Shown here: positions 2,414 to 22,992 of the stretch, piece after piece
Position numbering within the stretch: the stretch's first letter is position 1
Layout of the letters: each line of letters opens with the position of its first letter
Origin: a virus
DNA: 64,000 bases
IMG/VR virus record: IMGVR_UViG_3300025617_000009
Coordinates: 51,085 to 115,084 of that record
Strand: one strand, 5' to 3'
Notes under the pieces: model-generated
Databases searched by the model: none
Told to the model about the DNA's origin: nothing
What the model saw: the letters and a program-made list of their open reading frames with translations, nothing else
Translations under genes and position numbers: made by a program

Positions 2414-2425
2414 AAAGGACAACCA

Positions 2426-3250
2426 ATGCGTATCTTAGTAACAGGACACAAAGGGTTTATCGGACAAAATATCTCAAAATATTTAATACAACAAGGACAC
2501 GAAATAGAAGGATGGGAATGGATTCCTAACACTGTACCAGATCCTAGTTCGTATGATTGGGTTGTACATTTAGGAGCAATCACAGATACTACTTGCAAAG
2601 ATGTAGAACAAATTATGGAACAAAATCTAGAGTTTAGTCTTAGATTATTACAAGTATGTGATATGACAGGGACAAACTTTCAATATGCTAGTAGTGCCAG
2701 CGTTTACGGAGATTTAAAAACTTTCAACGAAGAAGGACCGTTTTATCCTATGAATCCATATGCTTGGAGCAAATATCTTTTTGATAGATTTGTAGATCAA
2801 CACATAGACGGATTTACAATCAAAGTACAAGGATTTAGATTTTTTAATGTTTATGGAAATCATGAAGAGCACAAAGGAAATATGGCCAGTGTGTTTCACA
2901 AGTTTATAAAACAAGCACGTACTACTCAAAATATTCAAGTATTTGAAAACAGTGAAAATTATTCTAGAGATTTTATTTGTGTAGACGATGTATGTGATAT
3001 TATGTCTAAGTTTATGGACAAAGACGTAATGGGTGTTTTTAATCTAGGAACAGGTTCTGCAACAAGCTTTGCAGAGGTTGCAAAATATATTGCAAGAGTG
3101 TATAATAGTAGTATACAAGAAATACCTATGCCAGATAACTTAAAGGCACAATATCAAAAGTTTACACAAAGTAATAATAACCTTTTATTATCTGAGCTAG
3201 GTGATTATAAGTTTACATCAATATACGAGTGGATAGATAAAAATGGATAA
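2426..3250 (+). CDS. NAD-dependent sugar epimerase, HldD (ADP-heptose 6-epimerase)-like
   Basis: A 274-aa extended short-chain dehydrogenase. The Rossmann motif G7-x-x-G10-x-x-G13 is at the N-terminus; YASSASVYG (88-96) supplies the catalytic Ser region; Y112-x3-K116 (PYAWSK) is the catalytic pair. The stretch FFNVYGNHEEHKGNMASV (140-156) is close to the hallmark region of ADP-L-glycero-D-manno-heptose-6-epimerase (FNVYG-x-x-E-x-H-K-G-x-MAS). HldD makes the final ADP-heptose used for inner-core LPS. E. coli HldD is about 310 aa, so this copy is slightly short at the C-terminus. AAAGGA lies upstream of the start. It overlaps the cupin gene by 8 bases. A GDP- or dTDP-sugar epimerase is the alternative. 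Confidence 0.85.
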   Translation: MRILVTGHKGFIGQNISKYLIQQGHEIEGWEWIPNTVPDPSSYDWVVHLGAITDTTCKDVEQIMEQNLEFSLRLLQVCDMTGTNFQYASSASVYGDLKTFNEEGPFYPMNPYAWSKYLFDRFVDQHIDGFTIKVQGFRFFNVYGNHEEHKGNMASVFHKFIKQARTTQNIQVFENSENYSRDFICVDDVCDIMSKFMDKDVMGVFNLGTGSATSFAEVAKYIARVYNSSIQEIPMPDNLKAQYQKFTQSNNNLLLSELGDYKFTSIYEWIDKNG

Positions 3251-3632
3251 CCCGACTAGACTTTCTGGAGCAGTAAAAAAAGGCTGGGGATATGAGCTAA
3301 TATTTGCAACCAACGATTTGTACTGCGGTAAAATCATAGTTTTTGAAAAAGCTGGTGCAAAAACTAGTATGAACTTTCACAAAGAAAAAGACAAAACTTG
3401 GTTTATTAACTCAGGTAGTTTTTTATTACGAACTATTGAAACTAAATCTGCTACACTAATCACTAAAGAATTAAAGGAAGGCGATGCTTGGCACACTCCG
3501 CCATTAATTCCTCACCAATTAGAAGCATTAGAAGATAATTCTAGTTTAACAGAAGTAAGCACACCTGATTCAGTTGAAGATATGCATAGAATTAGTCAAG
3601 GCGATACACAACTCGAGGCTAAAAATGGTTGA
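3243..3632 (+). CDS. Single-domain cupin (sugar isomerase/epimerase-like)
   Basis: A 129-aa protein with a compact cupin pattern: a first motif around NFHKEKDKTWFINSGSFLL (residues 43-62) and a second around GDAWHTPPLIPHQLEAL (80-97), with several candidate metal-binding His residues. It resembles the cupin part of mannose-6-phosphate isomerase or dTDP-4-keto-sugar epimerases. It sits between an HldD-like epimerase and a GmhB-like phosphatase, with 8-base overlaps on both sides, so the three are translated as one unit. A role in sugar-phosphate or nucleotide-sugar conversion is inferred from context; the reaction cannot be read from the sequence. Confidence 0.7.
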   Translation: MDNPTRLSGAVKKGWGYELIFATNDLYCGKIIVFEKAGAKTSMNFHKEKDKTWFINSGSFLLRTIETKSATLITKELKEGDAWHTPPLIPHQLEALEDNSSLTEVSTPDSVEDMHRISQGDTQLEAKNG

Positions 3633-4242
3633 TATTGTTTGGAGTGGCAAAGACGATCTACGTTATAAAGATCCGAGCTGGATCGCTCCTAACGTAGTTG
3701 TAGGTTTAGATCGTGACGGCGTACTTAATGAAAATGTCGAAGGATATTGTACTAAGCCTGAACAGTTCGTACCAATAGAAGGCAGTCTAGAAGCGGTTGC
3801 TAAACTTCGCAAACTGGGACATAAGACTGCTATTATTACTAATCAAGGATGTATAGAAAAAGGTATTTGCACTCAAGAAGATGTAGAGCGTGTAAACACC
3901 TATATGTTTGAACTACTAGGCAAAGCAGGATGTCCTGTTGTTGATGCATTATATTTTTCTGCTAGTAGCCGCAAGGACGATGAGTGGGCTAAACCTAATG
4001 TTGGTATGTTTAAACGTTGTGAGCGAGAACACCCTCACATCAAGTTTAATAAAGGGTACTATGTAGGTGATAAACTTACAGATTTGAAAGCCGCTGTAAA
4101 AATAGGTGCTACGCCTATTTTAGTTCGTACAGGACACGGCTTAGAAACAGAACAAGAACTGAATAAGTTTACATACAGAAAACTTAAAAAGGCAACAAAG
4201 ATCTTTGACGATCTACAATCATTTGTTGCCACTTTAAGTTAG
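3625..4242 (+). CDS. HAD phosphatase, GmhB-like (heptose bisphosphate phosphatase family)
   Basis: A 205-aa HAD subfamily III phosphatase. Motif I is GLDRDGVLN (Asp29 nucleophile, Asp31), motif II is ITNQGCIEKG (Thr72-Asn73), motif III Lys is probably K123 in AKPNVGMF, and motif IV is YYVGDKLTDLKAA (Asp149, Asp153). This set matches D-glycero-D-manno-heptose-1,7-bisphosphate 7-phosphatase and histidinol-phosphatase relatives. The Cys/His zinc loop typical of bacterial GmhB before the catalytic Lys is missing (SASSRKDDEW is found instead). The start at 3625 (ATGGTTGA overlap with the cupin stop) is preferred over ATG 3574, which lies within the cupin. It converges with the giant minus-strand gene, overlapping by four bases, with no terminator between. 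Confidence 0.8.
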   Translation: MVDIVWSGKDDLRYKDPSWIAPNVVVGLDRDGVLNENVEGYCTKPEQFVPIEGSLEAVAKLRKLGHKTAIITNQGCIEKGICTQEDVERVNTYMFELLGKAGCPVVDALYFSASSRKDDEWAKPNVGMFKRCEREHPHIKFNKGYYVGDKLTDLKAAVKIGATPILVRTGHGLETEQELNKFTYRKLKKATKIFDDLQSFVATLS

Positions 4243-7200
4243 GCTTGCGCTTCGCCCCAACGTAGAATAATATTTGACGTTGTATCTGCACCTGATGTTT
4301 TATATACGTTAATAGCCAGTACATCAGGACCATTAGGGAATGTACCTCGCCCTCCTAAAGTAGTATTTGTCAATTCTTTTAACGTATCTAAGTTTAGATT
4401 AGCACGTTCGCCCGGTGTTGCAATAAACGAGAATACTGTTTCACCTGGTTGTGCATAAGGCGGTTCTACAAACTCTACAGTAATAGTACCCGTGCCAGCT
4501 ACCAATGTTCCATTGTACGAGTTATTGAATATTATTCTATAGTATATTGTGCCTGCAAACTCTTCTTCTGAAATACTCTGTATCTTTGTGTTAGCAGGGA
4601 AGTTACCAGCGGTTGTAGCAACAACATCTGTACCTACACTGGCGCCTGAGGCTGTTAATGATGCAGCAGTAGCAAGCATAAAGTTACGTCCTACAAGATC
4701 ACCACCTCGAGAAAATGTTATTGTCTCGCTGTCTTGGATTCTTCCACTGAACCGCTGATTTAGTCGAACAATATAGTTATTCTGCCAAGAGTTTTCTATT
4801 CGTCTTACCGTTGTGCCTGCAGGGAAAGTTGCGCCACCAGCTGCAGATACCAGACTATCACCTGCTTCTAATCCGATATTATTTACACTATCTCTAGTCA
4901 TATATATGTAATCAGCATTATTGGCATTCATAAAGAACGATGTAGTTGCTGTTCCTGTAATAGCAGACTGTGCTGTAATATTTGCTTGTACTGCACTTTG
5001 ACCAGTTGACCATTGAACAGAACCGCCTGCGGCAATCTGTGCAAAGCTAGGCTGACCACCTTGTGCTTCTGAGCTTAGTCCCGACCATACAATATTTGCT
5101 GGGTTATCTGGATAGTTTTGAGGATTAAGTACGCCTTCAACAACAATGCCACCTGTGATTGGTGCATTTGAGTTTGCAGGGTCGACACCGTCTGAACTGA
5201 TTTCAATACCTTGAATCAATAACTGGGCACGATTTAACAGTTCGCGTTCGCCTAAGTCACCTGTAATAGCGTTTGATACACTAGGTGCTAGACGCAACAA
5301 GAATGCTGTTTGTTTGATTGTACTGACTGGAATACTCTGTTCTGTGTAAGAGAAAATATATCCACGATCTTCGTCAAAGTTACCATCTGTAATAAACGAT
5401 GAACCCCAATGACTAATAAGTGGTGTAATAGTGTTGCTTACTAGTACAACGCCAGTTCTATTAGAATGCGATGCTGCTGATCCTGCTGTATACGATCTTT
5501 GTGCTCCAGCATTAAAGTTTGTAAGGTTAGCACTTCTAGTACAACCAGTTAATCTATTATTATCAATATCCACACCAGTAAATGATATTAGCTCGTTGTC
5601 TATATACACTGTTCCTCCACTTGGTGGGAAGAAACTAGCATCTTGCAACGGTATAAAGTCTTGCGAAGGCGTCATGTCTGCACTTAATCGATCATTTGCA
5701 CCTTCGTTGGTTACTTCATAACGTACAGGCAAGTTACCTGAACGCATGTATGCTTCAGTGTTTACGTTAGAGTTACGTATTCTGTGTGCGTATACAAAGT
5801 TACCGTCTGCACCGCGGACCATAAAATCAATAAAACCAGCACCATACCATGAATATTGAATACCAATCATCTGCATCTTAGCAGGATCAATGTTGTATTT
5901 ACTAGCACCTGTGCCATCTAATCTATCAAGGTTAAAGTCTTGTTGTCTAATCTTTTTATCTGTAATCAAACATGCTTTAGCACCTGAAATATTTACAACG
6001 CCTCGGAAATCTGGAGTGACTGTCATCTCTGTTTGTGAGGTTACACCTGAAATAACGTGTGTCATACCTTTAATAACAATTCTGTCGCCTGCTTTTACTT
6101 GGTCGCGGAATCGTGTGCCTGTACCTGTTACTAAACTACTGTCACTATCAATAGCAATAGTACCTGCTAGTTGTTTAGTAGATGTTCTTTGTACTACACT
6201 TAGATATGTTCCATCATATTCCCAAAAGATTCCGTTCTGATCGTCAAAAATACCTGAACGTACAGTAGCACCATTCCACGCTACTGTAGATATTTGAGCG
6301 CCAAATCCGATAACTGGGTCTGTACTTCCCAATCTGTATTGTGCTGTAACTCTAAATGTTCTTTCGTTGACGATATCAGTAACAGTATAATCGTGATTGT
6401 ATCCTGGAGTTTCTACACCAATAATGCGTATCTGACCACCTACTTGTAAGCCGTGATCGTTTTCATCAGTAGTAACTGTAATAGTTGATCCTATTTCTAC
6501 GTTATCTGCTGAGATACTTAAAATATCATAACTTGGTGCAAACAATGCACCGGTGGTATACATAATACCTTTACCTGATTGATAACGAATATATTTTTTA
6601 CTTTGACGTATTGCTTGCGCACCATGTTGCGGACCGCCTGTGCCTAGTTGTACGCCGCCGTCATACGGTCTGTGAATAAAGAAGCTGTCAGGTTTAGGAT
6701 AAATGTTGCCTGCAATAACATCATTATCGTCAATGGCTCCTGGCGCTCTTGCTTGATATGTTAAAGTCAACGCATCTGGCACACTTGTAGCAATGTATGG
6801 ACCGTTTGCAAGATTATGATTGTTTACACCGTCGTCGGAGTTGATTACAACGTTAAATCCACTACCAGGTATTAATCCATGAGCAGTTTCAAACGTTACT
6901 AGAATAGTTGCAAGTGCGCTAAAACTAATAGTATCACCGTTGGTTATTCCGCCTACAGTAGATTCACTGAGTGTAACACTGCTAATAAAATCTAATGCAG
7001 CGCCTGCTACTGCTGTTCCTGAATCTGTAAATGTAACAATACTACCCGCTGAATCAACGTCAGTTACTGTAATTAGAATATCGTTAACACCGTCAACTCC
7101 ACCCAAATCGTTACCACTAATTATTAATCTATTACCAGTTTCATAACTTACACCTGTACTAACTAATGTTACAGATGTATATGATCCCGAATCTCGTGTT

Positions 7201-10200
7201 ACGTTAAATGTTGCGCCGCTACCGTTAATAGTAATATTAGAGCCAGATACAGCAGTATATGTTCCGACGTCGCCGGCGGCAGTGCCTGTAAACGTAGAAC
7301 TAGCAATGCTTCCGTTTGTTCCTATTGCTGTTACAGTTACTTCAATATCGTTAGTAGGACTAGCTCCTCCTACAGATGTACCTGGAATAATAACAGTCTG
7401 TCCAACGCCATAATTAATACCTACATCTGCTTCAGTAACACTATAAACACCGTTAACAATATCAACATCCCATGTTGCGCCCGAACCTACGATATTATCT
7501 GCTGTTAATCCTAAACCATTTACTACATCTCTATTAGCTGCTGTACCTGCAATAGAAAATGTTAGTATTTCTCCGTTTACATCTACAGTATTAACAGTAA
7601 TTGTTAGATTATTAGTTCCATCATCGCCGCCAAGTTCACTACCTAATATAGTAATAGTATTAGTAGGAGCATAATCTACACCAGCAGCAAACAATGTTAC
7701 AGAATATACATCAGCATTTTTATCTATGTTAAACGATGCGCCTGTTCCAATACCATTAGTAGTACTTTGAGTTACAGCACTATAACTTTCAACAACATCT
7801 GGCGCAGTTCCTGTAAATGTATATGATGTAATATATCCGCTACCATCTACACCAGTAACTGTTATAACTATATCGTTAGTTGTTACAGCACCGTTTGGTA
7901 TTGTAACACCCGATATCAATAGTTTATCGTTTTCTACATAGCCTGACATAGTTGGTAATGCCGTCCCCGAACCAGATATTGTAGAAATAGTACCCAACAA
8001 TGTTGTTTCTGATCCAGCAGTTATTGCTGTTATATCTACGGTGAGGTCATTAGTTGGAGAAGATCCTCCTATTTGATCACCGGTGATCAAAATAGTCTGA
8101 TCAGATGCATAGTTAGTGCCTGCATTATTAACTGTTACAACATATGAAGATGCTGATACTTCTACGTCAAATGTTGCGCCTGATCCTACAATGTTTGACG
8201 TTGATAAACTTTCCCTAGTTTCTTCGTCAACAGCAGTGCCTGAAACATTTACTGTTAATATTTCTCCGCCTACGTCAACAGATGAAATTGTGATAGTTAC
8301 ATCATTGGCAGGAGTAGCTCCACCTAATAAATCACCTGTAACTACTTTAGAATCACCATTGGTATAACCACTACCTGCGTTTGTAATATTTACTAGGTAG
8401 TTTTGATTATCTGTTGTAATATCAAATTGTGCATTAGTGCCAGTGCCTGTATCAAAGTCTAATCCGCCATATAATCTACTAGTACTAGGTGCACCTGATG
8501 AATCATATGTAAATGTTGTTATTGCGCCGGTACCATCTACTCCTGTAACTTTAATATAGAGATCGTTAGCAGGAGTAGTTCCTCCTAGATTACTACCAGT
8601 TATTTGAATTATATCATTTACTGCATATCCTGAAGTTGCCGCTCCAGAAAGTTGTACGTCACTAAATCCCGTACTAGACCATGTTACATCAAATAATACA
8701 CCAGATCCGTTTCCTTGCTGTGTAGTTCCTGTGACATTTGTATACGTAGGATTGGAAGTGTCTAAACTATAAACATTGTCTTCCCAAGTAACATCAAAAC
8801 TTGCACCTGCGCCATTACCATGCTGATAGTTGCCTTCTATACTGGTGTACGAAGCATTACCGTCAAATGCTGCGCCAGCAATAGTAGCAGTAAGGATTCC
8901 TCCTGAAGAATCTACAGTCGATATTGTAATAGTTGCATCGTTGGTTGACGATAATCCGCCTAAGTCTGCTCCGTCTACAAGTATTTCTTCGCCAGCATCA
9001 TAATTTGTACCTGCTTGAGTTATTGCATCTATTGTATAAGATCCACCGGCTCTGCTAATGGTAAACTCTGCGCCAGAACCAATGACTAAATCAGCAGATG
9101 CATTTACTCCGATGTAATCTACAACATTTCCTATAATAGTCGAACTAAGTTCATCTGATAAATTTACAGTATTTCCTACTACGTTTAATACAGTAACGCC
9201 AACGCCGTCTCCGCGGTCTACTGCTAGTCCTGGCAGAATTCCTGTTACACTGTCTACATTAACAGAAGTCGATCCTGCCGGAGCATCGTTAGTAACATTC
9301 GGAGATACAACTGTTCCTCCAGCACCTACAATACCAGTTACCTGTGTACCTTGATTTATACCATTACCACTTAACGGAGAACCTATTTCTGGCACGTCAT
9401 CTTCAAATGGTATAAAATCACTTCCAATAGGAACATTTAATGCTGCTGTCATTACACCACTGCTGCCTTGACTATCAATAGTAAACTCTGGGCTACCAAT
9501 AGTAGCTCCTGTATAGAAACCTGCTTTTCTAAGAACGGTAAAGTTTGTAGCCATTTCTTCACCAGAGGTTGTTCCTACTTTTGCTTTTGCTAGGTATGTG
9601 AACTCGTTCGTAGCCGGTGTACTTGTAACAATAAATGTTCCTTCTGCTCTTGCAGCACCTACAACACCTAAATCTAATGCTTTGACTACAACAGGATCGC
9701 CTTCTTCTAATGTATGAGCACCAGCAGTTGTTACTGTAATAACACTAGAACCTACGCCCTGAGATCCAATACTCGCATCCGTAGTAGCACTTGTAATATT
9801 AAGTTCTGTACCTACTACTTCATAAGTTGAAGGATATCCACGTAGTGTGCCAATAGCACTCCACTTAGTAGGCTGTAAACCGTATTCAAAGTCAGCATCA
9901 AGCATCGACAACGGAGGTGCAACACGCATACGTTCAATGGCGTCAGTTCCAAAGTCAAATGGTCTTGTTCTTAGTTCTTTTTCGTCTATGAATATTTGAA
10001 TATCGTCTGCAGCATCTTGTCCTGTTGTATCAGCAAATAGATTTACAATAGTAACAGCGTCTGTTTTATCTAAGAACTTAGGAAAATCGTCATCTTCTTC
10101 TGTGTGGTACTCTAAGAAACCTCCTAGTTCTGCTTTAGCAAAGTTGTAAATAATCTCACCACGATCAGTGTTTGTCATTAACAAGAAATCAGCGTTATTA

Positions 10201-11750
10201 TAATTACCTATAACTTTAATATAACTTACACCAGTATCTTCTCGCACAGGTACAACACTTAATCCGTTTTCGATAATATTAGTTGTATCATCTAACAGTA
10301 CTTCTAGTTTTGTTACTGCTGCAGGTTCTGACGTTTTAGTTAAATCTATAACTTGTGTATTAACATTTTGTCTAGCATATAAAAATTCTGTATTTGTTAA
10401 CACAAAATCTAAAATTAGTTTCTTTAAAAAAGTATGTCCTTCAACTTCTGCTAATCTGTTACCGTCTACTTGCGAAACATCACCGTCCCAGAACAAACTG
10501 ATAGCATCTATAGTGTTTGTGTTTCCACCATAACGAATATCATACAAATATGCATCAATAGCATAACCGACATCTCTCTGACACTTGCTGGCATTAAATG
10601 TATAGCCTGCAAAAATACTATACACACTGCCGCCGTCAGCACTTACAAACGTGTGTTCACTAGTGTTTGAACTAATACCTACATCTACTGTAATAGTATT
10701 TGTACTAGTTGCTACGATTTCTACAGGTTTGTTATAAGCATAATCAGCATCAGGTTTTCTTATTGCACCGTCAATAGCGCCTACAAATGTGTGTACGCTA
10801 GTGTCACTGCTTATACCTACATTTACTGTAATAGTCGTTGCTGTAGTTGCTGTGATACTTACTAGAGTGTTAAACACATAATCTTTCCCGCCAGGTGCAT
10901 TAGATCCTGTTGATCTTGGATATGTGTGATTAGTAGTGTTACCATCTAAAGCACAAGTAAATGTTAAACTATTTTCTACGATTCTTATATCGTCGCCTTG
11001 ACTAAAATCATGGGCGCCTATAGTTAAGGTCATTACCCCAGTTGTCGGTGTGTAAACAGCATTTGTTGGAGTGTATTTTTTACCTGCTGAACTACCTGTA
11101 GCACGAGGATATGTGTGATTAGTAGCATCGTTGTCTAGCGCACAAGTAAATGTTAAACTGTCTTCTTGAATACGAATAAAATCGCCTAACTCGTAATCGT
11201 GCGCACCAATCGTTAGCTGCATTAATCCTGTAGCAGGATCATATGAAGCATCTGTAGGAGTATAAGGAACTAGGATACTGTTTGCTTTTCCACGAACAAA
11301 TGTGTGAACACTTGTGTCACTGCTTATGCCTACGTTAACTGTAATAGTTGTCGATGTAGTACTGTCAACTCGAATAGGATTATTACTATAAGGATCTGTT
11401 CCTGTTTGGTTAGGAACACCTATTGAACGAGGATATGAATGTTCTGTTGCATTGTTGTCATAGCCGCATGTAAATACTAAACTATTGCCGCTAATTCTAA
11501 TGTAATCACCGACGTTAAGTGAGTGTGTCCCTATAGTGATTTCCATTACACCTGTTGTCGGTGTATAAACAGCATTTGTCGGAGTATATGTTGTACCAAC
11601 ATGGGCAATTTGATCAGTCAACCATTCTGTTACTTCTTTCTGCAAAAATGTTTTATTTTGCTGTAGTAAGTAATATGCATTAGGTGCTAAGTTATCTGTG
11701 TAACTAATGCCTGGATGAAATACATAATCATAAATTCTTTTCTTTGCCAT
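4239..11750 (-). CDS. Giant virion fibre-like protein (2503 aa)
   Basis: The largest gene in the window. The N-terminus has a helical module (NKTFLQKEVTEWL...) shared with the fibre at 23698-28797, but here it is split by about 320 residues holding repeats of a YTPTNAVYTPTTGVM-type beta unit. Residues ~780-1620 are a long array of ~70-residue units of the form NAGxxYxxGxxIxIxGxxLGG...ND(I/L)xIxVxxVDxxGxI, likely a beta-rich shaft. The C-terminal ~850 residues are non-repetitive and probably hold the tip (GGVQLGTGGPQHG near residue 1690; later FPPSGGTVYIDNELISFTG). No enzyme motif recognised. By size, repeats and its place among virion genes it is probably a tail fibre or other appendage protein. 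Confidence 0.75.
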   Translation of the reverse strand: MAKKRIYDYVFHPGISYTDNLAPNAYYLLQQNKTFLQKEVTEWLTDQIAHVGTTYTPTNAVYTPTTGVMEITIGTHSLNVGDYIRISGNSLVFTCGYDNNATEHSYPRSIGVPNQTGTDPYSNNPIRVDSTTSTTITVNVGISSDTSVHTFVRGKANSILVPYTPTDASYDPATGLMQLTIGAHDYELGDFIRIQEDSLTFTCALDNDATNHTYPRATGSSAGKKYTPTNAVYTPTTGVMTLTIGAHDFSQGDDIRIVENSLTFTCALDGNTTNHTYPRSTGSNAPGGKDYVFNTLVSITATTATTITVNVGISSDTSVHTFVGAIDGAIRKPDADYAYNKPVEIVATSTNTITVDVGISSNTSEHTFVSADGGSVYSIFAGYTFNASKCQRDVGYAIDAYLYDIRYGGNTNTIDAISLFWDGDVSQVDGNRLAEVEGHTFLKKLILDFVLTNTEFLYARQNVNTQVIDLTKTSEPAAVTKLEVLLDDTTNIIENGLSVVPVREDTGVSYIKVIGNYNNADFLLMTNTDRGEIIYNFAKAELGGFLEYHTEEDDDFPKFLDKTDAVTIVNLFADTTGQDAADDIQIFIDEKELRTRPFDFGTDAIERMRVAPPLSMLDADFEYGLQPTKWSAIGTLRGYPSTYEVVGTELNITSATTDASIGSQGVGSSVITVTTAGAHTLEEGDPVVVKALDLGVVGAARAEGTFIVTSTPATNEFTYLAKAKVGTTSGEEMATNFTVLRKAGFYTGATIGSPEFTIDSQGSSGVMTAALNVPIGSDFIPFEDDVPEIGSPLSGNGINQGTQVTGIVGAGGTVVSPNVTNDAPAGSTSVNVDSVTGILPGLAVDRGDGVGVTVLNVVGNTVNLSDELSSTIIGNVVDYIGVNASADLVIGSGAEFTISRAGGSYTIDAITQAGTNYDAGEEILVDGADLGGLSSTNDATITISTVDSSGGILTATIAGAAFDGNASYTSIEGNYQHGNGAGASFDVTWEDNVYSLDTSNPTYTNVTGTTQQGNGSGVLFDVTWSSTGFSDVQLSGAATSGYAVNDIIQITGSNLGGTTPANDLYIKVTGVDGTGAITTFTYDSSGAPSTSRLYGGLDFDTGTGTNAQFDITTDNQNYLVNITNAGSGYTNGDSKVVTGDLLGGATPANDVTITISSVDVGGEILTVNVSGTAVDEETRESLSTSNIVGSGATFDVEVSASSYVVTVNNAGTNYASDQTILITGDQIGGSSPTNDLTVDITAITAGSETTLLGTISTISGSGTALPTMSGYVENDKLLISGVTIPNGAVTTNDIVITVTGVDGSGYITSYTFTGTAPDVVESYSAVTQSTTNGIGTGASFNIDKNADVYSVTLFAAGVDYAPTNTITILGSELGGDDGTNNLTITVNTVDVNGEILTFSIAGTAANRDVVNGLGLTADNIVGSGATWDVDIVNGVYSVTEADVGINYGVGQTVIIPGTSVGGASPTNDIEVTVTAIGTNGSIASSTFTGTAAGDVGTYTAVSGSNITINGSGATFNVTRDSGSYTSVTLVSTGVSYETGNRLIISGNDLGGVDGVNDILITVTDVDSAGSIVTFTDSGTAVAGAALDFISSVTLSESTVGGITNGDTISFSALATILVTFETAHGLIPGSGFNVVINSDDGVNNHNLANGPYIATSVPDALTLTYQARAPGAIDDNDVIAGNIYPKPDSFFIHRPYDGGVQLGTGGPQHGAQAIRQSKKYIRYQSGKGIMYTTGALFAPSYDILSISADNVEIGSTITVTTDENDHGLQVGGQIRIIGVETPGYNHDYTVTDIVNERTFRVTAQYRLGSTDPVIGFGAQISTVAWNGATVRSGIFDDQNGIFWEYDGTYLSVVQRTSTKQLAGTIAIDSDSSLVTGTGTRFRDQVKAGDRIVIKGMTHVISGVTSQTEMTVTPDFRGVVNISGAKACLITDKKIRQQDFNLDRLDGTGASKYNIDPAKMQMIGIQYSWYGAGFIDFMVRGADGNFVYAHRIRNSNVNTEAYMRSGNLPVRYEVTNEGANDRLSADMTPSQDFIPLQDASFFPPSGGTVYIDNELISFTGVDIDNNRLTGCTRSANLTNFNAGAQRSYTAGSAASHSNRTGVVLVSNTITPLISHWGSSFITDGNFDEDRGYIFSYTEQSIPVSTIKQTAFLLRLAPSVSNAITGDLGERELLNRAQLLIQGIEISSDGVDPANSNAPITGGIVVEGVLNPQNYPDNPANIVWSGLSSEAQGGQPSFAQIAAGGSVQWSTGQSAVQANITAQSAITGTATTSFFMNANNADYIYMTRDSVNNIGLEAGDSLVSAAGGATFPAGTTVRRIENSWQNNYIVRLNQRFSGRIQDSETITFSRGGDLVGRNFMLATAASLTASGASVGTDVVATTAGNFPANTKIQSISEEEFAGTIYYRIIFNNSYNGTLVAGTGTITVEFVEPPYAQPGETVFSFIATPGERANLNLDTLKELTNTTLGGRGTFPNGPDVLAINVYKTSGADTTSNIILRWGEAQA
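10640..11600 (-). repeat. Tandem beta-unit repeats inside the giant fibre gene
   Basis: Roughly residues 52-370 of the 2503-aa protein. A unit (Y-x-P-T-x-A-x-Y-x-P-x-TGVM, then TIGxHxxxxGDxIRI, SLxFTCxxDxxxTxHxYPR) occurs four times, twice complete and consecutively. A second unit, TTTITVNVGISSDTSVHTFV, is found four times between or after the copies. At DNA level the copies have diverged but share long similar blocks, e.g. around 10920-10970, 11100-11160 and 11430-11480. Confidence 0.85.
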
Positions 11751-16129: not shown

Positions 16130-16131
16130 TT

Positions 16132-16653
16132 TTATCCCCGATCAAACGTTACACTAATTCCATCAAAGGTTAGTGAAATATTGTCAAATGTTGACGAACC
16201 AGCGAGATCAAACTCTTGAGCCACTGTTTCTTTTTGTCTCTGATATAAAGGATGATTATTTTTAAAGTATGTGGCACTAAAAAATACACTTGCGCCTGCT
16301 AAAGAAATATCGTTATCTGTAACTTTTGGCGTAGCATTAACAACAACATAACTGTCAGTTATTTCAGCAGTTATGTCAACAATGTCTTCGTTTAACCCAG
16401 CTCTTGCATATGGCAAAACAGAAGTTGTCGAGCCGCCTGCAACCACAATACATTTTATTATTTCTTTGACATTGTGATCAAAGTCTGCTATTATAGTATA
16501 TTCTGCGCCAGCAAACTCTCCGAGTTCGAATCTGTCAATCTCAGTTTTATCATAGAGTTCAATCCAGGGTCCTTGAACACTCAAGTTTACTCCTGGATTA
16601 AATTGTACAGTTTTTCTTGGTCCGGTTGAGAAATACTGGTCTAATGGTAACAT
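16132..16653 (-). CDS. Small virion-type protein, unknown function
   Basis: A 173-aa protein, mostly beta by pattern, not recognised. It is first in the 4.2-16.7 kb group and has its own late-promoter-like octamer and AAGGA site. Repeated DNISLTFDGISVTFD at the C-terminus resembles strand repeats of fibre tips. Its place next to a fibre-like gene suggests a virion or fibre-assembly role. Confidence 0.55.
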   Translation of the reverse strand: MLPLDQYFSTGPRKTVQFNPGVNLSVQGPWIELYDKTEIDRFELGEFAGAEYTIIADFDHNVKEIIKCIVVAGGSTTSVLPYARAGLNEDIVDITAEITDSYVVVNATPKVTDNDISLAGASVFFSATYFKNNHPLYQRQKETVAQEFDLAGSSTFDNISLTFDGISVTFDRG

Positions 16654-16673
16654 ACTACATCCTTTATGTAGTA

Positions 16674-16681
16674 TTATTTAT
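16674..16681 (-). promoter_or_regulatory. Candidate T4-type late promoter (ATAAATAA)
   Basis: Minus strand reads ATAAATAATAC about 20 bases before the start codon at 16653, followed by AAAGGA. It directly abuts the stop of the carbamoyltransferase gene. Confidence 0.6.
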
Positions 16682-18471
16682 CAGTTTTTTACAACTACCA
16701 TTTTACCTAATTCAGGGAGGAACAAGTATTCAATATCGCTTTCTTTCAGTGTACGTACAGCATCATCTAGTGTTTCAACAAGTGGCTCACCTCCTAGATT
16801 AAATGACGTATTAAAGATGATTGGTACGCCTGTACGTTCATAGAATGCTTTAATAATATTATAATAATGTTTGTTTTGTTCAGCATTAACTGTTTGGATG
16901 CGACAAGTGCCGTCCACATGAATAATGCTTGGAATTTTTTCTTCAACTCCTGGTTGACAATCCATTGCATACATCATATGCGGAGATGACTCCATGCCTT
17001 TCATGTCAAACCATTCATGTGCATATTCTTCTAAAATACTACCTGCGAACGGACGAAAGTACTCTCTGTGTTTAACACTGTTAACAAAATCTTTACCATT
17101 CGGATCTGTTGGATCGTAGAGAATACTTCTGTTACCTAATGCCCTAGGGCCATTTTCTGCACGACCTTGAAATACTGCAACAATATTTTTACTAGTAATT
17201 AAATCAATAACTTTTTCGTAGTCTGCATCAATTATTTCTACAATAGAATCTTCAAAATTTAAATCTATTTCTGTGATGTTGTATTTCGGTCCAAGATATA
17301 ACGAATGACCTGGTCGAATTGTATTATCTTCTTCTAATGCATGGTGAAATAATAGAGCAGCACCGAGAGCCGTTCCTGCATCTGAGCTAATAGGTTCTAC
17401 ATAAAGTTTAATATCTTTTTCGTTAAGTGTATCAAGATAATAATAGTTTGCAACACAATTTAGCGCATAACCGCCTGAAAGCACAACATTTTTTTTACCT
17501 GTCATTTCTACTGCTTTTAAAATAATATTAAGAATTTGTTCTTGAGTTTCTTTTTGTAATGCATATGCAAGATTTCGACGACTTGTTAGTTCAGTTAAAT
17601 CTTGTCCTTCTTCAGGCATTTCGTCAAGAGTTCCATATAAATCACTATTAACTATACTGCCGTTAGGATATCTAGGAATAATAATGTTCCTATTACTTAA
17701 TGGATATTTAGAATCTTTATCGAACAATGGAGGAATACTATCGTCTGGTTTACCATATGGGCTTAGACCCATAGTTTTTCCTGCTTCGATAGAAGAAAAT
17801 CCACAATATTCTGTTACACCTTCGTATACTTTAGTTACACCGCTTCTGTCACTAATTATTGCATCATGAAATTTATCTGGCTCTCCAAATCTATCGCTTG
17901 GCATTTTTGTAATACCTGAAGGAACAGGATCTCTCACACCATAAACCTTAAATTTAGTTTCAAACTCTGCAGGATATGCGCAATCCGTAATAGTTTCTAC
18001 TTCGTAACTCATTACTTGTTCGTTGCCAATTTGTAGAGGAATAAACGTTCCTGCACCATCAACCGATACAGCAACAGCATCTTCAAACCCTGAACGATAA
18101 AACGCACAAGCAGCATGTAATTTATGATGCATATTTGCTAGATCAATAACTTGCGGATGATCGTCCCTGCCGTGATGATTACGTTTGATGAGACCTAGTT
18201 TTCTTGCAATACCTGTATAAACATCGTCTCCTGTATAATCTACTCGGCCGGCAGTCTCGTATAAAGGCTGTGTATGTGCTATTACAAGATAATCTAATCT
18301 GTCTGTATAATCTAAAATTTTAACCATACTAGCAAAAGGGCCGCCGTCATATTTTTGACGACTAAATCTTTCTTCTTCGCTGGCAAAAACAATTTCACCG
18401 TCTTTTAAAAGACATACTCCTGCATTATGTCCTCTTGCTATTGCTGCTATCCACAATGGACGTTTTTTCAT
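16681..18471 (-). CDS. O-carbamoyltransferase, NodU/TobZ/CmcH family
   Basis: A 596-aa protein, full family length. The N-terminal ASKHA/Kae1-like part includes IAAIARGHNAGVCLL at the start, an HHKLHAACAFY metal-binding region (~118-130), a VSVDGAG phosphate-binding segment (~145) and LSGGYALNCVANYY (~328-341). The C-terminal YrdC-like part has FQGRAENGPRALGNRSILYDP (~437-457) and REYFRPFAGSIL. These are the defining motifs of enzymes that move a carbamoyl group from carbamoyl phosphate via carbamoyl-AMP to a hydroxyl, e.g. on Nod factors, antibiotics or sugars. It follows SGNH and GT9 genes with 3-base gap or 1-base overlap, implying that the target is a glycan, either host LPS or a virion glycan. 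Confidence 0.92.
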   Translation of the reverse strand: MKKRPLWIAAIARGHNAGVCLLKDGEIVFASEEERFSRQKYDGGPFASMVKILDYTDRLDYLVIAHTQPLYETAGRVDYTGDDVYTGIARKLGLIKRNHHGRDDHPQVIDLANMHHKLHAACAFYRSGFEDAVAVSVDGAGTFIPLQIGNEQVMSYEVETITDCAYPAEFETKFKVYGVRDPVPSGITKMPSDRFGEPDKFHDAIISDRSGVTKVYEGVTEYCGFSSIEAGKTMGLSPYGKPDDSIPPLFDKDSKYPLSNRNIIIPRYPNGSIVNSDLYGTLDEMPEEGQDLTELTSRRNLAYALQKETQEQILNIILKAVEMTGKKNVVLSGGYALNCVANYYYLDTLNEKDIKLYVEPISSDAGTALGAALLFHHALEEDNTIRPGHSLYLGPKYNITEIDLNFEDSIVEIIDADYEKVIDLITSKNIVAVFQGRAENGPRALGNRSILYDPTDPNGKDFVNSVKHREYFRPFAGSILEEYAHEWFDMKGMESSPHMMYAMDCQPGVEEKIPSIIHVDGTCRIQTVNAEQNKHYYNIIKAFYERTGVPIIFNTSFNLGGEPLVETLDDAVRTLKESDIEYLFLPELGKMVVVKN

Positions 18472-18474
18472 TTT

Positions 18475-19341
18475 TTAAAATCCTCTATATTCATTGTTCC
18501 ATCTTATTTTTTTAACAAATGCATTAAAATCAGAATAACAGTCGATGTAACACTGTTCTACTGTATCTATCCAAATATCTACTTTTGGACTTAGAATCTG
18601 GTTGCAAGATAACGCTGGTAAAACACAAGATTCTGCAAACTCTTTGTGCTGTAAAATAGTTGGATGGTGTTCTGTTCTAAACTTTGTAGTTCCTATAATA
18701 TTTTTAATTAAAAATCTATAACAAGGGTATTTGCTATTCCAGGCTGTTGATCCAACTGGTGCAATCCAATGTTTTTTATTTTCTGTAAAAAGTTTGTCTT
18801 TATATACGGTTAACTCTGGTATTTTATCCCAAATACTCTGTTCTTCTACATCTATCTTATCAACAGTTATGTCATTTCCTGGAACATCTGTGTTTAACTT
18901 TTCAATATCTCCCATACTGGTCATTAACCAAGTACATCCTATATTTTTTAGTAGTTGTTGAGCAGTATTAATGCAGTTCAACGTATGCATTACATAACTT
19001 TTTTCATCCCAAAACTGATTAATCCATTTATTATCGTATATTCGTTGATTAATATTATTAAAGATACTTCCGCTAGTTTTCCAACCTTCTACAACTCCAT
19101 GCCTTGCATCGGTTGTATGCCAGTCGTGTCGAATATGGCTGGTCCATTGTATTATTACAGTATCATCTTTATTTAGATTATGCACTAGAGAAAGTTCTGA
19201 TAATCTTTCCAATATTGCTCTATTACCTAAACCAGGCCACGCCCAGTTCTCATAAAAATCATATTGTTCTCCTAGCATGTCTGCCCAAGTTGGCCAGGCA
19301 TAGCTAGAAAAACTACAACCTATAGTAAATAATCTTGACAT
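18475..19341 (-). CDS. SGNH/GDSL-like hydrolase
   Basis: A 288-aa protein. The N-terminus TIGCSFSSYAWPTWADML fits block I of SGNH hydrolases, with Ser10 as nucleophile in a G-C-S-F-S context. NWAWPGLGNRAI fits block II (Gly), and EHHPTILQHKEFAESCVLP near residues 224-242 fits the C-terminal block that supplies catalytic His. Such enzymes remove or add acyl groups on sugars and lipids. It lies between the carbamoyltransferase and the GT9-like gene, overlapping the latter by one base, so a glycan O-acyl esterase or acyltransferase is plausible. Strongly AT-rich compared with the fibre genes. Confidence 0.7.
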   Translation of the reverse strand: MSRLFTIGCSFSSYAWPTWADMLGEQYDFYENWAWPGLGNRAILERLSELSLVHNLNKDDTVIIQWTSHIRHDWHTTDARHGVVEGWKTSGSIFNNINQRIYDNKWINQFWDEKSYVMHTLNCINTAQQLLKNIGCTWLMTSMGDIEKLNTDVPGNDITVDKIDVEEQSIWDKIPELTVYKDKLFTENKKHWIAPVGSTAWNSKYPCYRFLIKNIIGTTKFRTEHHPTILQHKEFAESCVLPALSCNQILSPKVDIWIDTVEQCYIDCYSDFNAFVKKIRWNNEYRGF

Positions 19342-20285
19342 TATTCCTCATGTTGAATTTTTCCTAAAATAACGTCTATTACATATTCTCTGATATCTTT
19401 GTCCATAGCCATTAATCTTTCATTATGTCTATCAATTGATTCGTCCATGCAAATTCTAATAGGTGAATACTTTCTATCTTGTTGTCCTAAGTCTAAAACA
19501 TCAAAATACTCGCAGTTGGGGTAAGAAACATTTATAGGATACGTTGCACCTGTAATGATAACTGTTGGAGTTTCTACAGTATAGGATAAATGTTGTCCAA
19601 CACTATCACATCCTATAAATTTATCTGCATATTTAATAACAGAAGCCCATTGTCTTAAGTTAAGTCCTTCTGGCATTGCAACTTCATCTTTTAGTTTTTC
19701 GCCTTTAAGATCCATATGTATTTCACTCATTATGATAATTCCATAGTTATCTTTTTGTAGTGCTTTAATAATTTCTTTTAAATCATTAAATTCTATACTT
19801 CTACCAGTTTTATCAATTAACGTAGAATCTAGTAATTCTATTCCTCTGCCAAATGGTTGTATAACTACAATTTTATCTTTTTTTGTTTTTTCTTTTACTT
19901 CAGTAACTATTTTTTTACCAATGAGCAGTTCGTCTTTACTAAGATATAATTTTGGTTTAGGTAAATCTCTAATTCCTTTATTATTAATAACAAGATCAAA
20001 TGCTTGTGACAAGTTACAGTTTTGATTATAATAATCGTATTGTTGATAAGGTTCTGGCCAAATACAATCTCTATTTTTTAACATATTGTTAAAAAGATTT
20101 TTGGTCCAATTATCATAAGCTTTATCATCTAATGTAGGATGACCTTTAAACATATCGGTGCCGCCTTCAGCAACAATAATAAAATCTTCGTCACCACTTT
20201 CTTCTGCATATTTTTCTAGTGCCGGAATTGAACAAAGCATGCGGCCGGCGCCGCCGTTTAAGAAAAAAGCTTTAGATCTTGACAT
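19341..20285 (-). CDS. GT9 heptosyltransferase-like glycosyltransferase
   Basis: A 314-aa protein with the GT9 layout. An N-terminal acceptor-side loop NGGAGRMLCSIPALEKY matches the family's G-D-x-x-x-x-x-P-x-l pattern. The second half has IVVIQPFGRG (start of the donor domain) and FIGCDSVGQHLSYTVETPTV, where Asp and His align with the D-T/S-x-x-x-H motif that binds ADP-heptose in WaaC/WaaF. This fits transfer of heptose, or a similar sugar, to a glycan. The phage also carries HldD- and GmhB-like genes. Start supported by GGAG. It is first after a strong terminator, and I see no late promoter in front of it, so it may have a different promoter type or rely on read-through. Confidence 0.75.
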   Translation of the reverse strand: MSRSKAFFLNGGAGRMLCSIPALEKYAEESGDEDFIIVAEGGTDMFKGHPTLDDKAYDNWTKNLFNNMLKNRDCIWPEPYQQYDYYNQNCNLSQAFDLVINNKGIRDLPKPKLYLSKDELLIGKKIVTEVKEKTKKDKIVVIQPFGRGIELLDSTLIDKTGRSIEFNDLKEIIKALQKDNYGIIIMSEIHMDLKGEKLKDEVAMPEGLNLRQWASVIKYADKFIGCDSVGQHLSYTVETPTVIITGATYPINVSYPNCEYFDVLDLGQQDRKYSPIRICMDESIDRHNERLMAMDKDIREYVIDVILGKIQHEE

Positions 20286-20297
20286 AATTTCTCCATT

Positions 20298-20347
20298 AAA
20301 AAACCGATCGGTAAAGTATATATGTGTATACTTTAACTCGACCGGTT
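20298..20347 (-). terminator. Intrinsic terminator
   Basis: The minus strand reads a long imperfect hairpin (arms AACCG...CGGTT outside; perfect 9-bp TAAAGTATA/TATACTTTA inside, loop of six) followed directly by TTTTTT. It lies between the 221-aa protein gene and the GT9 gene and separates the glycan block from the fibre operon upstream. Confidence 0.8.
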
Positions 20348-20361
20348 AATAATGGTTTAGA

Positions 20362-21027
20362 TTAAAAGAATGTAGGATAATCTACATCTGTTGGAAGTTT
20401 CCAATGAGGTATATCTGCATATTTTGTAGGAATATTTTCAAGGTATTCTTTGTACGCAGTTATTTCTGCTATTTGTTCATCAGTAAACCCGTGAGTTTCT
20501 GCATTGTCCAACTTGTTCTGCATGTCTGAAATCATGCTTAAACGACCGTCATTAAAATCATCAGCGGTTACGGCATGTGTTCTGTATTCAGGCCCTTCCC
20601 ATTGTTGTAAATTAAAATTGTAGGTATACCCTCCATTTAGCCCAGCAGTTTCATGATCGATTACACCAGTAGTTTCATCATAAGTATGTTCCCATGTAAA
20701 AGTTTCACCGTCTGCGTCAGTTAGTGTTTCAGTCCAGTCATTTGGATCGGCATGCGTATACGACAGCGTTAACGAAGAGGCAAGTGCAGGATTCTCGTCT
20801 GCATCCACGATAACATATTCCCATTGATTATGAGCCAAACTAGATGCATCTAAGGCTGGATCGTTTTCATCGTCGCTGCCTCGAATACTTGATCCAGTGC
20901 CTAATGCTGGATCTAATTCTACTAGTAAATATCTTGGACCCGTATATGTAATATCAATGGTTCTTGTACCAGTTGACGAGTTTACATATGGCTCATCAGG
21001 TCTATTCCATGTAAAAGTTTTATTCAC
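20362..21027 (-). CDS. Putative fibre-associated or tail fibre assembly-like protein
   Basis: A 221-aa acidic protein. The C-terminal ~60 residues (MQNKLDNAETHGFTDEQIAEITAYKEYLENIPTK..., ending IPHWKLPTDVDYPTFF) resemble the helical tail and W/P-rich ending of phage tail-fibre assembly chaperones. The N-terminal part is beta-rich. It sits at the downstream end of the fibre operon just before a terminator, the usual place of a fibre chaperone. The assignment is by this resemblance and position only. Confidence 0.5.
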   Translation of the reverse strand: MNKTFTWNRPDEPYVNSSTGTRTIDITYTGPRYLLVELDPALGTGSSIRGSDDENDPALDASSLAHNQWEYVIVDADENPALASSLTLSYTHADPNDWTETLTDADGETFTWEHTYDETTGVIDHETAGLNGGYTYNFNLQQWEGPEYRTHAVTADDFNDGRLSMISDMQNKLDNAETHGFTDEQIAEITAYKEYLENIPTKYADIPHWKLPTDVDYPTFF

Positions 21028-21036
21028 TTCTATCTC

Positions 21037-22008
21037 CTATGATTCAATAAATTTAATTCTAACTGCTCCGGCACCGCCGTATGTTGCGTGATCTCGAACA
21101 TTACAGCATGCTGCTGGACCTGGAGCACCAGTTCCAAACGGTAGCCAATGTCCGCAACCAAATGTGTTATAACAACCATAATACCTGCCATTCCAGCAAG
21201 CATGATTTCTAGGTGGTGCATCAGGTGATCGATGTGCTGCTTGAAGAGCTTGGATAAAGTCTGTAGCTCCACTACCTGATCTTGGATGCATTGGTGAATC
21301 CCAGTCTGGTGTATAACTAATTATTGCACCTTCTTCTGAATCATACATTCCTGGAGCCATTGGTACGTGATAAACCATTCTACATAGCTCCCAACCACCG
21401 TTTGAACAGCAGTAGAATGTTACACATCCAATGTTACTTGGCTTGTTAACATCGCCGCCATAAGCAAGTCCGCACCATCTTCCGTTACCAATGTTACAAA
21501 CAATACCGCATTCTGGCTGATTATCAAAACCGCAATTAGTGTGGCAAAAGTTATTACATCTAAAACATCTACTTGCAGCAGTATTTGGATTACATGTAGT
21601 ACAACCGCCTAAGCCGCCTTCTGCACATATACATCCATCTGCTGTTGAAGAAGTCCAGCACAACATAGTAGGTGCTGAACACCCTCTAAAACAAAGAGCA
21701 TCTGCGTCATTACATGCTTTGCCCATACATCCACAAATATAGTTATTGGCTGCAACTGTAATGGTTTTTTTACTGTACGATCCGCTGTTGCCAGGTATAC
21801 CTCCTCCGCAACAGCACATTTTAGCACTCGATCCGCCTGGGCCGATAGTTTCTATAATCGCTGTTCCTGGAGCTTTTGCACACCAACAAAATGTCCTACA
21901 TGCATCATATGTAACACTGTGTCCGTAGAAAAAGATTTCTCCGTCTTCGAGGTTATTCTCAATCGGATCTGACGATCTTTGTGCTAATAATCCTGATAAT
22001 TTTGCCAT
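21037..22008 (-). CDS. Cys-rich glycine-rich adhesin-like virion protein (copy 1)
   Basis: A 323-aa protein with about 32 cysteines by my count. It starts MAKLSGLLAQRSS and ends AGAVRIKFIES. After a short N-terminal beta segment it has a core IIETIGPGGSSAKMCCCGGGIPGNSGSYSKKT, recalling the phage glycine-rich domain (V-x-V-W-G-A-G-G...) found at fibre tips and receptor-binding adhesins. CAEGG, AYGGD and GTGAP motifs recur at the same places in two paralogues (22018-22992 and 45404-46378). No signal peptide. Likely a surface-exposed tip protein; whether Cys are disulfide-bonded or bind metal is unknown. Confidence 0.65.
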   Translation of the reverse strand: MAKLSGLLAQRSSDPIENNLEDGEIFFYGHSVTYDACRTFCWCAKAPGTAIIETIGPGGSSAKMCCCGGGIPGNSGSYSKKTITVAANNYICGCMGKACNDADALCFRGCSAPTMLCWTSSTADGCICAEGGLGGCTTCNPNTAASRCFRCNNFCHTNCGFDNQPECGIVCNIGNGRWCGLAYGGDVNKPSNIGCVTFYCCSNGGWELCRMVYHVPMAPGMYDSEEGAIISYTPDWDSPMHPRSGSGATDFIQALQAAHRSPDAPPRNHACWNGRYYGCYNTFGCGHWLPFGTGAPGPAACCNVRDHATYGGAGAVRIKFIES

Positions 22009-22017: not shown

Positions 22018-22992
22018 CTAATTCTCTATAAACTTAATTCTTGTCATTCCAACGCCGCCGGCTGTTCCTACATCTCGCATACCACTACACATTGTAGGAG
22101 CTGGTGCGCCGAATCCATAAGGAATAAAGCTATAACATCCATTAGCTTCATAACAACCGCAACTTGTAAATCCGTTCCAACATCTTTTTAGGTCCCAACC
22201 ACCACTAGGCTGTCTACTTACACCTCGAACAGCTGCTTGGAATTGAATAGACCCTTGCCCACTTTGTCCACCGTATGCAGAGTTTTGATCATCGTGCGTA
22301 AATGTTAAAACAACACCTTTATTAGAAAACATTCCTGCAGGTCCTGCAACATGTTGATGGAAACAGCAGTTGCAATTTGGATAACACCCAAGGAAACTCA
22401 TACAACTTATTTTACCGTCACAGTTTGTGTCTCCACCATATGCATTTGCAACCCAATAGCCGTCGTAGTGATTACAAACAAGACCGCAGTTATCATTTGA
22501 TAGTCTTGTAGTACAATAGCCTTCGCATAAAAATCTACAATACGGGCTTATTGTACATGAACAATACGACATGCCTGCAATACCGCCTTCTGCACACATA
22601 CATCCGTTTTCGCTTGCACCTACATAACAACATATGCTAGTAGGTTCTGAACATCCTCTACAACATATTTCGCTAGAGTTTATACAAGCTCGTCCGCTTA
22701 CACCAGTTATATAACTACTGCCATCAACGTCAAATGTTTTCTTCGAATAAGCACCGCTGTTACCAGGAAGTCCTGCAGCACAACAACATTGTCTTGAACT
22801 TGAGCCGCCCGCGCCCCAAATTTCTAATACTGCCGTACCTAACCGACCTTGTGACTGCCAGCACCAATCTACAGCAAAGTTGTTATTTTGGTTTCCTGAC
22901 ACAAAAGAATATATTTCACCTTGTTCAAGGTTTAGTTCGCCGACAGAATACGTATCTGCTTTTTGTGCTAATAAATCTGACAATGTTGCCAT
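22018..22992 (-). CDS. Cys-rich glycine-rich adhesin-like virion protein (copy 2)
   Basis: A 324-aa paralogue of its downstream neighbour, with about 30 cysteines. It shares MATLSDLLAQK at the start, LEIWGAGGSSSRQCCC then GLPGNSGAYSKKTF in the core, GCMCAEGG, AYGGDTN, IPYGFGAPAP and the ending MTRIKFIEN. The tandem arrangement with 21037-22008 looks like an old gene duplication; cysteine positions around the CCC cluster are conserved, but long loops differ. Probably binds at a fibre tip or the particle surface. Confidence 0.65.
   Translation of the reverse strand: MATLSDLLAQKADTYSVGELNLEQGEIYSFVSGNQNNNFAVDWCWQSQGRLGTAVLEIWGAGGSSSRQCCCAAGLPGNSGAYSKKTFDVDGSSYITGVSGRACINSSEICCRGCSEPTSICCYVGASENGCMCAEGGIAGMSYCSCTISPYCRFLCEGYCTTRLSNDNCGLVCNHYDGYWVANAYGGDTNCDGKISCMSFLGCYPNCNCCFHQHVAGPAGMFSNKGVVLTFTHDDQNSAYGGQSGQGSIQFQAAVRGVSRQPSGGWDLKRCWNGFTSCGCYEANGCYSFIPYGFGAPAPTMCSGMRDVGTAGGVGMTRIKFIEN

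Follow-up and report, generated by a model that had tools for sequence, protein, structure and literature searches.

A heptosyltransferase-fold glycosyltransferase and a carbamoyltransferase linked to tail-fibre adhesin and ADP-heptose genes: a possible virion-decoration cassette in aquatic phages

Results

Three adjoining minus-strand genes in the 64,000-nt stretch of DNA analysed here (the window; positions 51,085 to 115,084 of IMG/VR virus record IMGVR_UViG_3300025617_000009) encode a predicted heptosyltransferase-type glycosyltransferase (GT), an SGNH-hydrolase-fold protein and a predicted O-carbamoyltransferase (CT), and on balance we lean towards these forming a virion-decoration cassette in which GT and CT, with the SGNH protein where present, modify the phage's own tail-fibre adhesins. 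Cyanophages were already known to have the GT–CT pair, under the label 'hypothetical protein + carbamoyltransferase', and what is new here is the heptosyltransferase fold and the lock with the adhesin. We observe the gene order, the protein families and folds, and a conserved linkage to adhesin/chaperone genes and to ADP-heptose genes (features are listed in Table 1).

Table 1. Features of the three-gene block and of the associated genes in the window.
Feature	Position	Strand	Remarks
Nudix protein	1976..2413	+	Marks the slot; HldE lies between Nudix and HldD in most relatives
HldD-like ADP-glyceromanno-heptose 6-epimerase	2426..3250	+	
Cupin	3243..3632	+	Homologous to T4-GC 307 of the cyanophage heptose clusters
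GmhB-like D-glycero-D-manno-heptose-1,7-bisphosphate 7-phosphatase	3574..4242	+	Start codon uncertain
Very large fibre-type protein (2503 aa)	4239..11750	-	Separates the cassettes; homologous to the 1673-aa protein next to gp13 in S-CAM1
Structural-type protein 'up173'	16132..16653	-	3' of CT in most co-directional relatives
Late-promoter-like GATAAATA, weak	16675..16682	-	Before the next gene
CT, predicted O-carbamoyltransferase (NodU/TobZ type)	16681..18471	-	PHROG 1601; homologue of cyanophage T4-GC 303
SGNH-hydrolase-fold protein	18475..19341	-	Optional cassette member; GCSxS, EHHP motif
GT, predicted phage-specific GT-B glycosyltransferase	19341..20285	-	Heptosyltransferase (GT9/TibC-like) fold; PHROG 8954; homologue of cyanophage T4-GC 302
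Intrinsic-terminator-like hairpin + U-run	20298..20347	-	Between the chaperone-like gene and GT, i.e. upstream of GT
Tail-fibre chaperone-like protein	20362..21027	-	PHROG 9740; relatives match PF16778 Phage_tail_APC
Cys/Gly-rich adhesin-like protein	21037..22008	-	Copy beside the chaperone gene
Cys/Gly-rich adhesin-like protein	22018..22992	-	Second copy

Layout of the block

The initial annotation had described three genes coupled by junctions of 1–3 bases and more AT-rich than their surroundings, and both descriptions stand: GT and the SGNH gene overlap by 1 nt (TAATG) and a 3-nt gap separates the SGNH gene from CT, while the G+C content of the block is 0.338 compared with 0.378 +/- 0.017 in equally long windows (1.2% of which are as low) and with 0.38 and 0.41 in the flanks. 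The strong terminator said to bound the block was also recovered, with a folding energy of -26.6 kcal/mol for positions 20290–20360 (z -7.3) and a hairpin plus U-run at the same place in relatives, although the sequences differ. The late promoter proposed for the next group holds in part, as GATAAATA is present at the boundary but the motif is not enriched in the window, where one-mismatch TATAAATA matches number 161 against 185 expected by chance, and GATAAATA therefore counts by position only. Late promoters of the TATAAATA type are found upstream of GT in several co-directional relatives (e.g. L047, L055, L063 and L077). In the inverted lineage, whose cassette keeps its slot between the chaperone and 'up173' genes, no late promoter precedes GT but there is a conserved TGCTAAATT box, sigma70-like in look, that would fit earlier expression.

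The glycosyltransferase

The AlphaFold model of GT (pLDDT 91) matches heptosyltransferases best (3tov GT9 Z 22.9, WaaF 20.5, TibC 19.5 and WaaC 18.9), followed by plastid NDH-PSI subunits, which share the fold (Z 18–19), whereas other GT-B folds drop to Z 11.6 (all <12), and this bears out the earlier suggestion of a GT9 heptosyltransferase-like gene. A profile search of GT against PDB sequences did not find heptosyltransferases, which were found by structure comparison alone. The protein matches PHROG 8954 ('unknown function') at 4e-135 and PF01075 with 22.0 bits, exactly at the cut-off of 22 and for one domain only; its weak sequence matches point to heptosyltransferase families (PF01075, RfaQ, heptosyltransferase III and TibC/Aah). 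The model supports the prediction that GT is a heptosyltransferase-type glycosyltransferase.

GT has its closest fold in the GT9 LPS heptosyltransferases WaaC and WaaF, and the spacing of D227 and H232 resembles the GT9 donor site, but it is only 10–15% identical to these enzymes, its family is phage-only, and by motif alignment GGAGR stands in place of the catalytic-Asp motif. At the position of the catalytic Asp in GT9 and TibC the family has an invariant Arg (R15, 51/51), judging by an alignment, not a superposition, of the GGAGRxxxSIPALE motif with the WaaC motif, in which the N-terminal catalytic Asp is D13. The bacterial autotransporter heptosyltransferases TibC and AAH (PMC4358343), of which TibC is near the top of the fold matches, offer the further likeness of a heptosyltransferase paired with an adhesin. 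However, no CxxC of their four-cysteine iron finger occurs in the GT family (0/51 sequences), and the N-terminal beta-barrel is missing from the 314-aa GT, which aligns only to TibC residues 92–393. The GT motif is also without an equivalent of Asp-110 (by motif alignment), GT comes with a carbamoyltransferase, and there is no sign of dodecamers.

The carbamoyltransferase and the SGNH protein

CT has both the Kae1-like N domain and the YrdC-like C domain seen in NodU and TobZ (PF02543, 1e-22, and PF16861, 6e-60), matches PDB entries to 1e-63, and carries the HHxxHA and GPRALGNR motifs, with the sugar-type GPRALGNR residues found in all 78 cassette CTs that span the motif. These domains uphold the earlier carbamoyltransferase call, and at the level of sequence CT is supported as a predicted O-carbamoyltransferase of the NodU/TobZ type with a sugar/antibiotic-type motif. 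It shares both Pfam domains and the motifs with NodU, TobZ and GdmN but is tied to phage fibre genes.

Neither Pfam nor PHROG gave a family for the SGNH protein at threshold, and phage records gave no match, but its model has the SGNH hydrolase fold (TesA Z 12.8), and the catalytic residues S10, D/E224 and H226 (block-I Ser and block-V Asp/Glu-x-His) are each conserved in 44/44 sequences. Acylation by this middle enzyme, as first proposed, finds no support in a hydrolase fold or in the absence of the gene from the cultured phages. HMM searches of IMG/VR loci found the SGNH gene in 68 loci, GT in 86 and CT in 84, although many records are near-duplicates and these counts, like those given below, are not independent, and the SGNH gene is optional, being present in 18 of the 47 loci of a second set. 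We rejected an apparent rarity of the SGNH gene as a sensitivity artefact, as a single-sequence IMG/VR search had given one locus where the HMMs gave 68.

Linkage to adhesin and chaperone genes

A second, independent search started from the adhesin, and every adhesin–chaperone module that it found carried both GT and CT (47/47). Among cultured phages the Cys-rich adhesin is confined to S-CAM1 and S-CAM3, each of which has GT and CT as well. Because GT–CT never separates from this module, the target is likely to be the phage's own fibre and not host LPS, though the linkage may mean no more than that host-recognition modules travel together. A search of 84,980 species genomes gave seven hits, all in phage-type loci of marine MAGs, and bacterial operon context was dropped as a clue.

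Whole-window DNA had no match among phage records. The major capsid protein is ~70% identical to those of jumbo myophages (Sinorhizobium Phosso, Vibrio 2.275.O, PA5oct and Serratia BF), and the window is therefore not from an ordinary cyanophage.

Linkage to ADP-heptose genes

ADP-heptose genes (HldE–HldD–cupin and sometimes GmhB) occupy a fixed slot 10–19 kb away in aquatic relatives. HldD is found in 32/32 co-directional IMG/VR records covering the slot, with HldE adjoining in nearly all, and a close HldD is found in 22/22 phage or single-cell records longer than 4.1 kb that match GT well; GmhB is not a constant member (16/37). In P-SSM2, S-CAM1 and S-SSM7 hldE-type genes come after the homologous GT–CT pair, as do cupin and hldD in P-SSM2 and S-CAM1, contiguously in these two and with insertions in S-SSM7. 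Together with the co-directional records, this supports a split heptose pathway, and the functional link with the HldD/GmhB loci that the initial annotation had drawn is borne out by gene linkage. Its notion of obligate co-occurrence is not: of the 13 inverted records, mostly from fresh water, 12 lack HldD in the slot (L036 and L173 carry it far away), and in S-SM2 and P-TIM68 heptose genes occur although this GT is absent. These cases go part of the way towards the refutation that the initial annotation had named, genomes regularly carrying one cassette without the other.

The HldD and GmhB proteins of the window match these families best but fall below the NCBIfam equivalog cut-offs. HldE was not found in the (incomplete) record, which has only a nucleotidyltransferase–cupin fusion (G000 25555-26325), and GmhA is absent from the window, so the window's own ADP-heptose pathway is incomplete. 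The cyanophage T4-GC 302–308 cluster (P-SSM2, S-CAM1, S-CAM3 and S-SSM7) has homologous GT (302), CT (303), cupin (307) and HldD (308) genes and likewise places GT–CT beside tail-fibre genes, but it differs in having the heptose genes after CT, in lacking an SGNH gene and in a GT whose sole annotation is 'hypothetical', whereas in the window the 2503-aa fibre gene splits the cassettes and no HldE is present.

Discussion

If the cassette decorates the virion, GT would take heptose from ADP-heptose and attach it to an acceptor group on the tail-fibre adhesins of the phage itself, with the ADP-heptose supplied by phage HldE/GmhB/HldD and host enzymes. CT would then O-carbamoylate the transferred sugar at the expense of carbamoyl phosphate and ATP, and in loci that have the SGNH protein, this would remove or remodel an ester on the glycan. 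We infer the donor from genomic linkage, the acceptor from gene order only, and likewise the order of the steps and the effect, which may be fibre stability, receptor fit or adhesin protection. In the part of the literature that we covered, nothing was on point for heptose glycosylation of phage fibres.

GT9 enzymes normally build the LPS core, and the cassette might instead place a carbamoylated heptose on host LPS or surface polysaccharide, excluding superinfection or freeing progeny from receptor debris, and adjoin the adhesin because it alters the adhesin's receptor. This would suit the position near host-recognition genes in all loci, the sigma70-like box in place of a late promoter in the inverted lineage, and the large LPS-type gene clusters of P-SSM2, S-SM2 and S-SSM7 (PMC3037559). 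We nevertheless consider it unlikely. Several co-directional relatives have a late promoter in front of GT, and within the cassette we recognised no gene for a flippase, ligase or lipid carrier. Heptose is also lacking from marine Synechococcus LPS (PMC4515613), so that the hosts of the cultured members offer no acceptor core. With the adhesin lock, this lack of heptose disfavours the LPS masking against superinfection that was first proposed, and better fits the fibre modification that had been offered as its alternative.

Two other readings seem far less probable. A 5-hydroxymethylcytosine carbamoyltransferase from MetaGPA, most likely phage-encoded, belongs to the same superfamily as CT (PMC8670742), and CT might carbamoylate a hydroxymethylated base while GT glycosylates the base. 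This is very doubtful, as the motif reads GPRALCNT in that enzyme but GPRALG.R in 78/78 cassette CTs, and the equivalents of TobZ positions 421/423, which are among those linked to DNA modification and are C/T in the characterised 5hmC enzyme (PMC8670742), are G and R in the same 78 proteins (positions mapped by spacing). Moreover, no thymidylate synthase/dCMP hydroxymethylase family member was found in the 115-kb record, itself incomplete, and the surrounding genes are those for fibres and heptose. For the LPS genes of cyanophages, Sullivan et al. brought up 'stuffer DNA', and in 2010 these genes were left as either this or functionally linked (PMC3037559); the optional SGNH gene and patchy GmhB might suggest a loose cargo in which the three genes have no joint function. 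It is hard to reconcile this with GT and CT sharing one cassette across cyanophages and marine and freshwater contigs, or with the conserved catalytic residues of CT and the SGNH protein, and we regard the stuffer reading as already largely refuted by conservation.

Returning to virion decoration, we suggest tentatively, and with somewhat less confidence than for the decoration cassette itself, that a widespread family of aquatic T4-like and jumbo-type phages may use a phage-specific heptosyltransferase to heptosylate, and may also carbamoylate, their own tail adhesins, self-supplying ADP-heptose even where the host LPS is without heptose. If true, this would explain what the 'LPS genes' of large cyanophages are for, tying them to the fibre-adhesin module through a GT annotated as hypothetical, and dedicated glycosylation of phage fibres would be an extra layer of host-range determination.

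Cassette organisation and enzymes

The window covers 51085–115084 of an IMG/VR record of 115,084 bp. Its major capsid protein shares ~70% identity with those of jumbo myophages (Phosso, Vibrio 2.275.O and PA5oct among them), so this phage is no ordinary cyanophage. The three-gene block of the initial annotation was recovered on the minus strand as a heptosyltransferase-like glycosyltransferase (GT), an SGNH-like protein and an O-carbamoyltransferase (CT), with the first two genes overlapping by 1 nt and the last two 3 nt apart, and it is more AT-rich than 99% of windows of equal length. The proposed terminator corresponds to a terminator-like hairpin and U-run between the GT and the gene before it (-26.6 kcal/mol, z -7.3), which is kept at the same position in relatives with differing sequences. 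Judged by where it lies, the late promoter proposed after the CT (GATAAATA) is plausible, but the window shows no enrichment of the motif; several relatives have a TATAAATA late promoter ahead of the GT.

On sequence alone the GT is hardly recognisable (22.0 bits for PF01075, with weak NCBIfam matches to RfaQ, heptosyltransferase III and TibC/Aah). Its AlphaFold model (pLDDT 91) is closest to heptosyltransferases (GT9 3tov, Z 22.9; WaaF, 20.5; TibC, 19.5; WaaC, 18.9), followed by plastid NDH-PSI subunits, which share the fold, with Z dropping to 11.6 for other GT-B enzymes. There are two reservations: judged by motif alignment, GGAGR stands at the catalytic-Asp motif of heptosyltransferases, with Arg in 51/51 GT sequences, and the TibC iron finger, looked for in the GT sequences, was absent. 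The action we propose resembles adhesin heptosylation by TibC, but as the GT lacks the two defining features of bacterial autotransporter heptosyltransferases (BAHT) that we tested, it lies outside this family. A second GT follows the CT in loci L137, L144, L149, L150, L156 and L168, where GGIGR or GGMGR replaces GGAGR in one copy or both.

The protein encoded between GT and CT folds like an SGNH hydrolase (TesA, Z 12.8); its Ser10 and His226 are invariant, and position 224 holds Asp or Glu. This does not support the acylation suggested earlier: an esterase or deacylase would be likelier than an acyltransferase. Both carbamoyltransferase domains are present in the CT, which matches solved O-carbamoyltransferases down to 1e-63. 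Its GPRALGNR motif resembles solved antibiotic and sugar enzymes, whereas the DNA-modifying 5-hydroxymethylcytosine carbamoyltransferase reads GPRALCNT; G and R stand in place of its C and T in 78/78 cassette CTs spanning the motif.

Coordinates of the cassette and of other genes observed
Locus	Position	Strand	Feature
Window	19341-20285	minus	GT
Window	18475-19341	minus	SGNH-like
Window	16681-18471	minus	CT
Window	45404-46378		Cys-rich paralogue
Window	12844-14790		Subtilase within tail-fibre block, C-terminal fusion to cupredoxin-like stretch (PF13473 below cut-off)
L003 (window's record)	1806-9829 (G000:C1:20806-28829)	minus	Separate from the cassette, a cluster of small genes, glycosyltransferase-like or related: GT8, polysaccharide-pyruvyl-transferase-like, nucleotidyltransferase-mannose-6-phosphate-isomerase-type cupin fusion
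L002 (window's record)	10499-11464 (G000:C1:10499-11464)	minus	Second carbamoyltransferase, N-terminal part only (PF02543 4e-20)
L002	16777-17583		Vut_1 (PF02592), putative uptake transporter for vitamin or precursor, in phage record
L104	5142-5933		Between HldE and HldD, a protein like class I fructose-bisphosphate aldolase (short of the Pfam cut-off) that may be a source of sugar precursor; L100 encodes a similar protein
L102 (G028)	15678-16883		PLP enzyme, aminotransferase class I/II (PF00155 1e-63), by eye like aminolevulinate synthase; adjoins full heptose cluster in phage record
L007	14027-14371		T4-GC 306; with its homologues resembles HAD phosphatases (TIGR01689 EcbF-BcbF, 1e-8), the cyanophage annotation 'phosphoheptose isomerase' probably being wrong

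Association with an adhesin module

The conserved gene order is Cys/Gly-rich protein(s), a chaperone-like gene (matching PF16778 in relatives), GT, optional SGNH, CT and the structural-type gene 'up173'. In an inverted, mostly freshwater lineage the cassette is flipped with both flanking neighbours unchanged, and a conserved TGCTAAATT box stands ahead of the GT in place of TATAAATA. As the first set of loci had been GT-seeded, a second, independent search started from the Cys-rich protein. Among the best 80 of 224 stretches, near-duplicates included, GT and CT were found in 47/47 adhesin–chaperone modules whose downstream coverage was 3.5 kb or more, SGNH in 18/47, and a second GT after the CT in 16/47. 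The one Cys-rich paralogue located away from the module has no cassette beside it. Both S-CAM1 and S-CAM3, cultured phages with the Cys-rich adhesin, carry GT–CT, and a GT search of 84,980 species genomes gave seven matches, all in phage-type loci of marine MAGs.

Distribution of heptose genes

In IMG/VR relatives, the heptose slot is flanked by a Nudix gene and the giant fibre gene and holds HldE–HldD–cupin (sometimes GmhB). HldD is present in 32/32 co-directional records covering the slot, typically 10–19 kb from the GT, HldE adjoins it in nearly all such records, and GmhB occurs in only 16/37 informative records; HldE was not found in the slot of the window or of its nearest relative, L008. 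The slot is without HldD in 12/13 covered records of the inverted lineage, where L036 has a complete heptose cluster far from the cassette and L173, a 364-kb record, also has its HldD and HldE-type genes in a distant location. GT–CT homologues in the cyanophages S-CAM1 and P-SSM2 are directly followed by an hldE-type nucleotidyltransferase and kinase, HAD phosphatase, cupin and hldD, and S-SSM7 has the same genes beside GT–CT with insertions between (several are T4-GC 304–308; PMC3037559). A close HldD occurs in all phage records >4.1 kb having a good GT match; in S-SM2 and P-TIM68, HldD occurs but the GT does not. The co-occurrence check proposed in the initial annotation therefore supports a split heptose pathway well in one large lineage and in cyanophages, but only conditionally elsewhere; in lineages without a slot HldD, host ADP-heptose could supply the cassette.

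Probable target

Masking of host LPS and modification of the fibres had both been suggested. Modification of the host surface now seems unlikely, as the cassette is tied to the adhesin module first and to the heptose genes second, and marine Synechococcus LPS is without heptose (PMC4515613). The same linkage and LPS composition favour the tip of the phage's own fibre as the target, and we lean slightly towards a cassette that would decorate this fibre, for which we infer the donor, acceptor, reaction order and effect.
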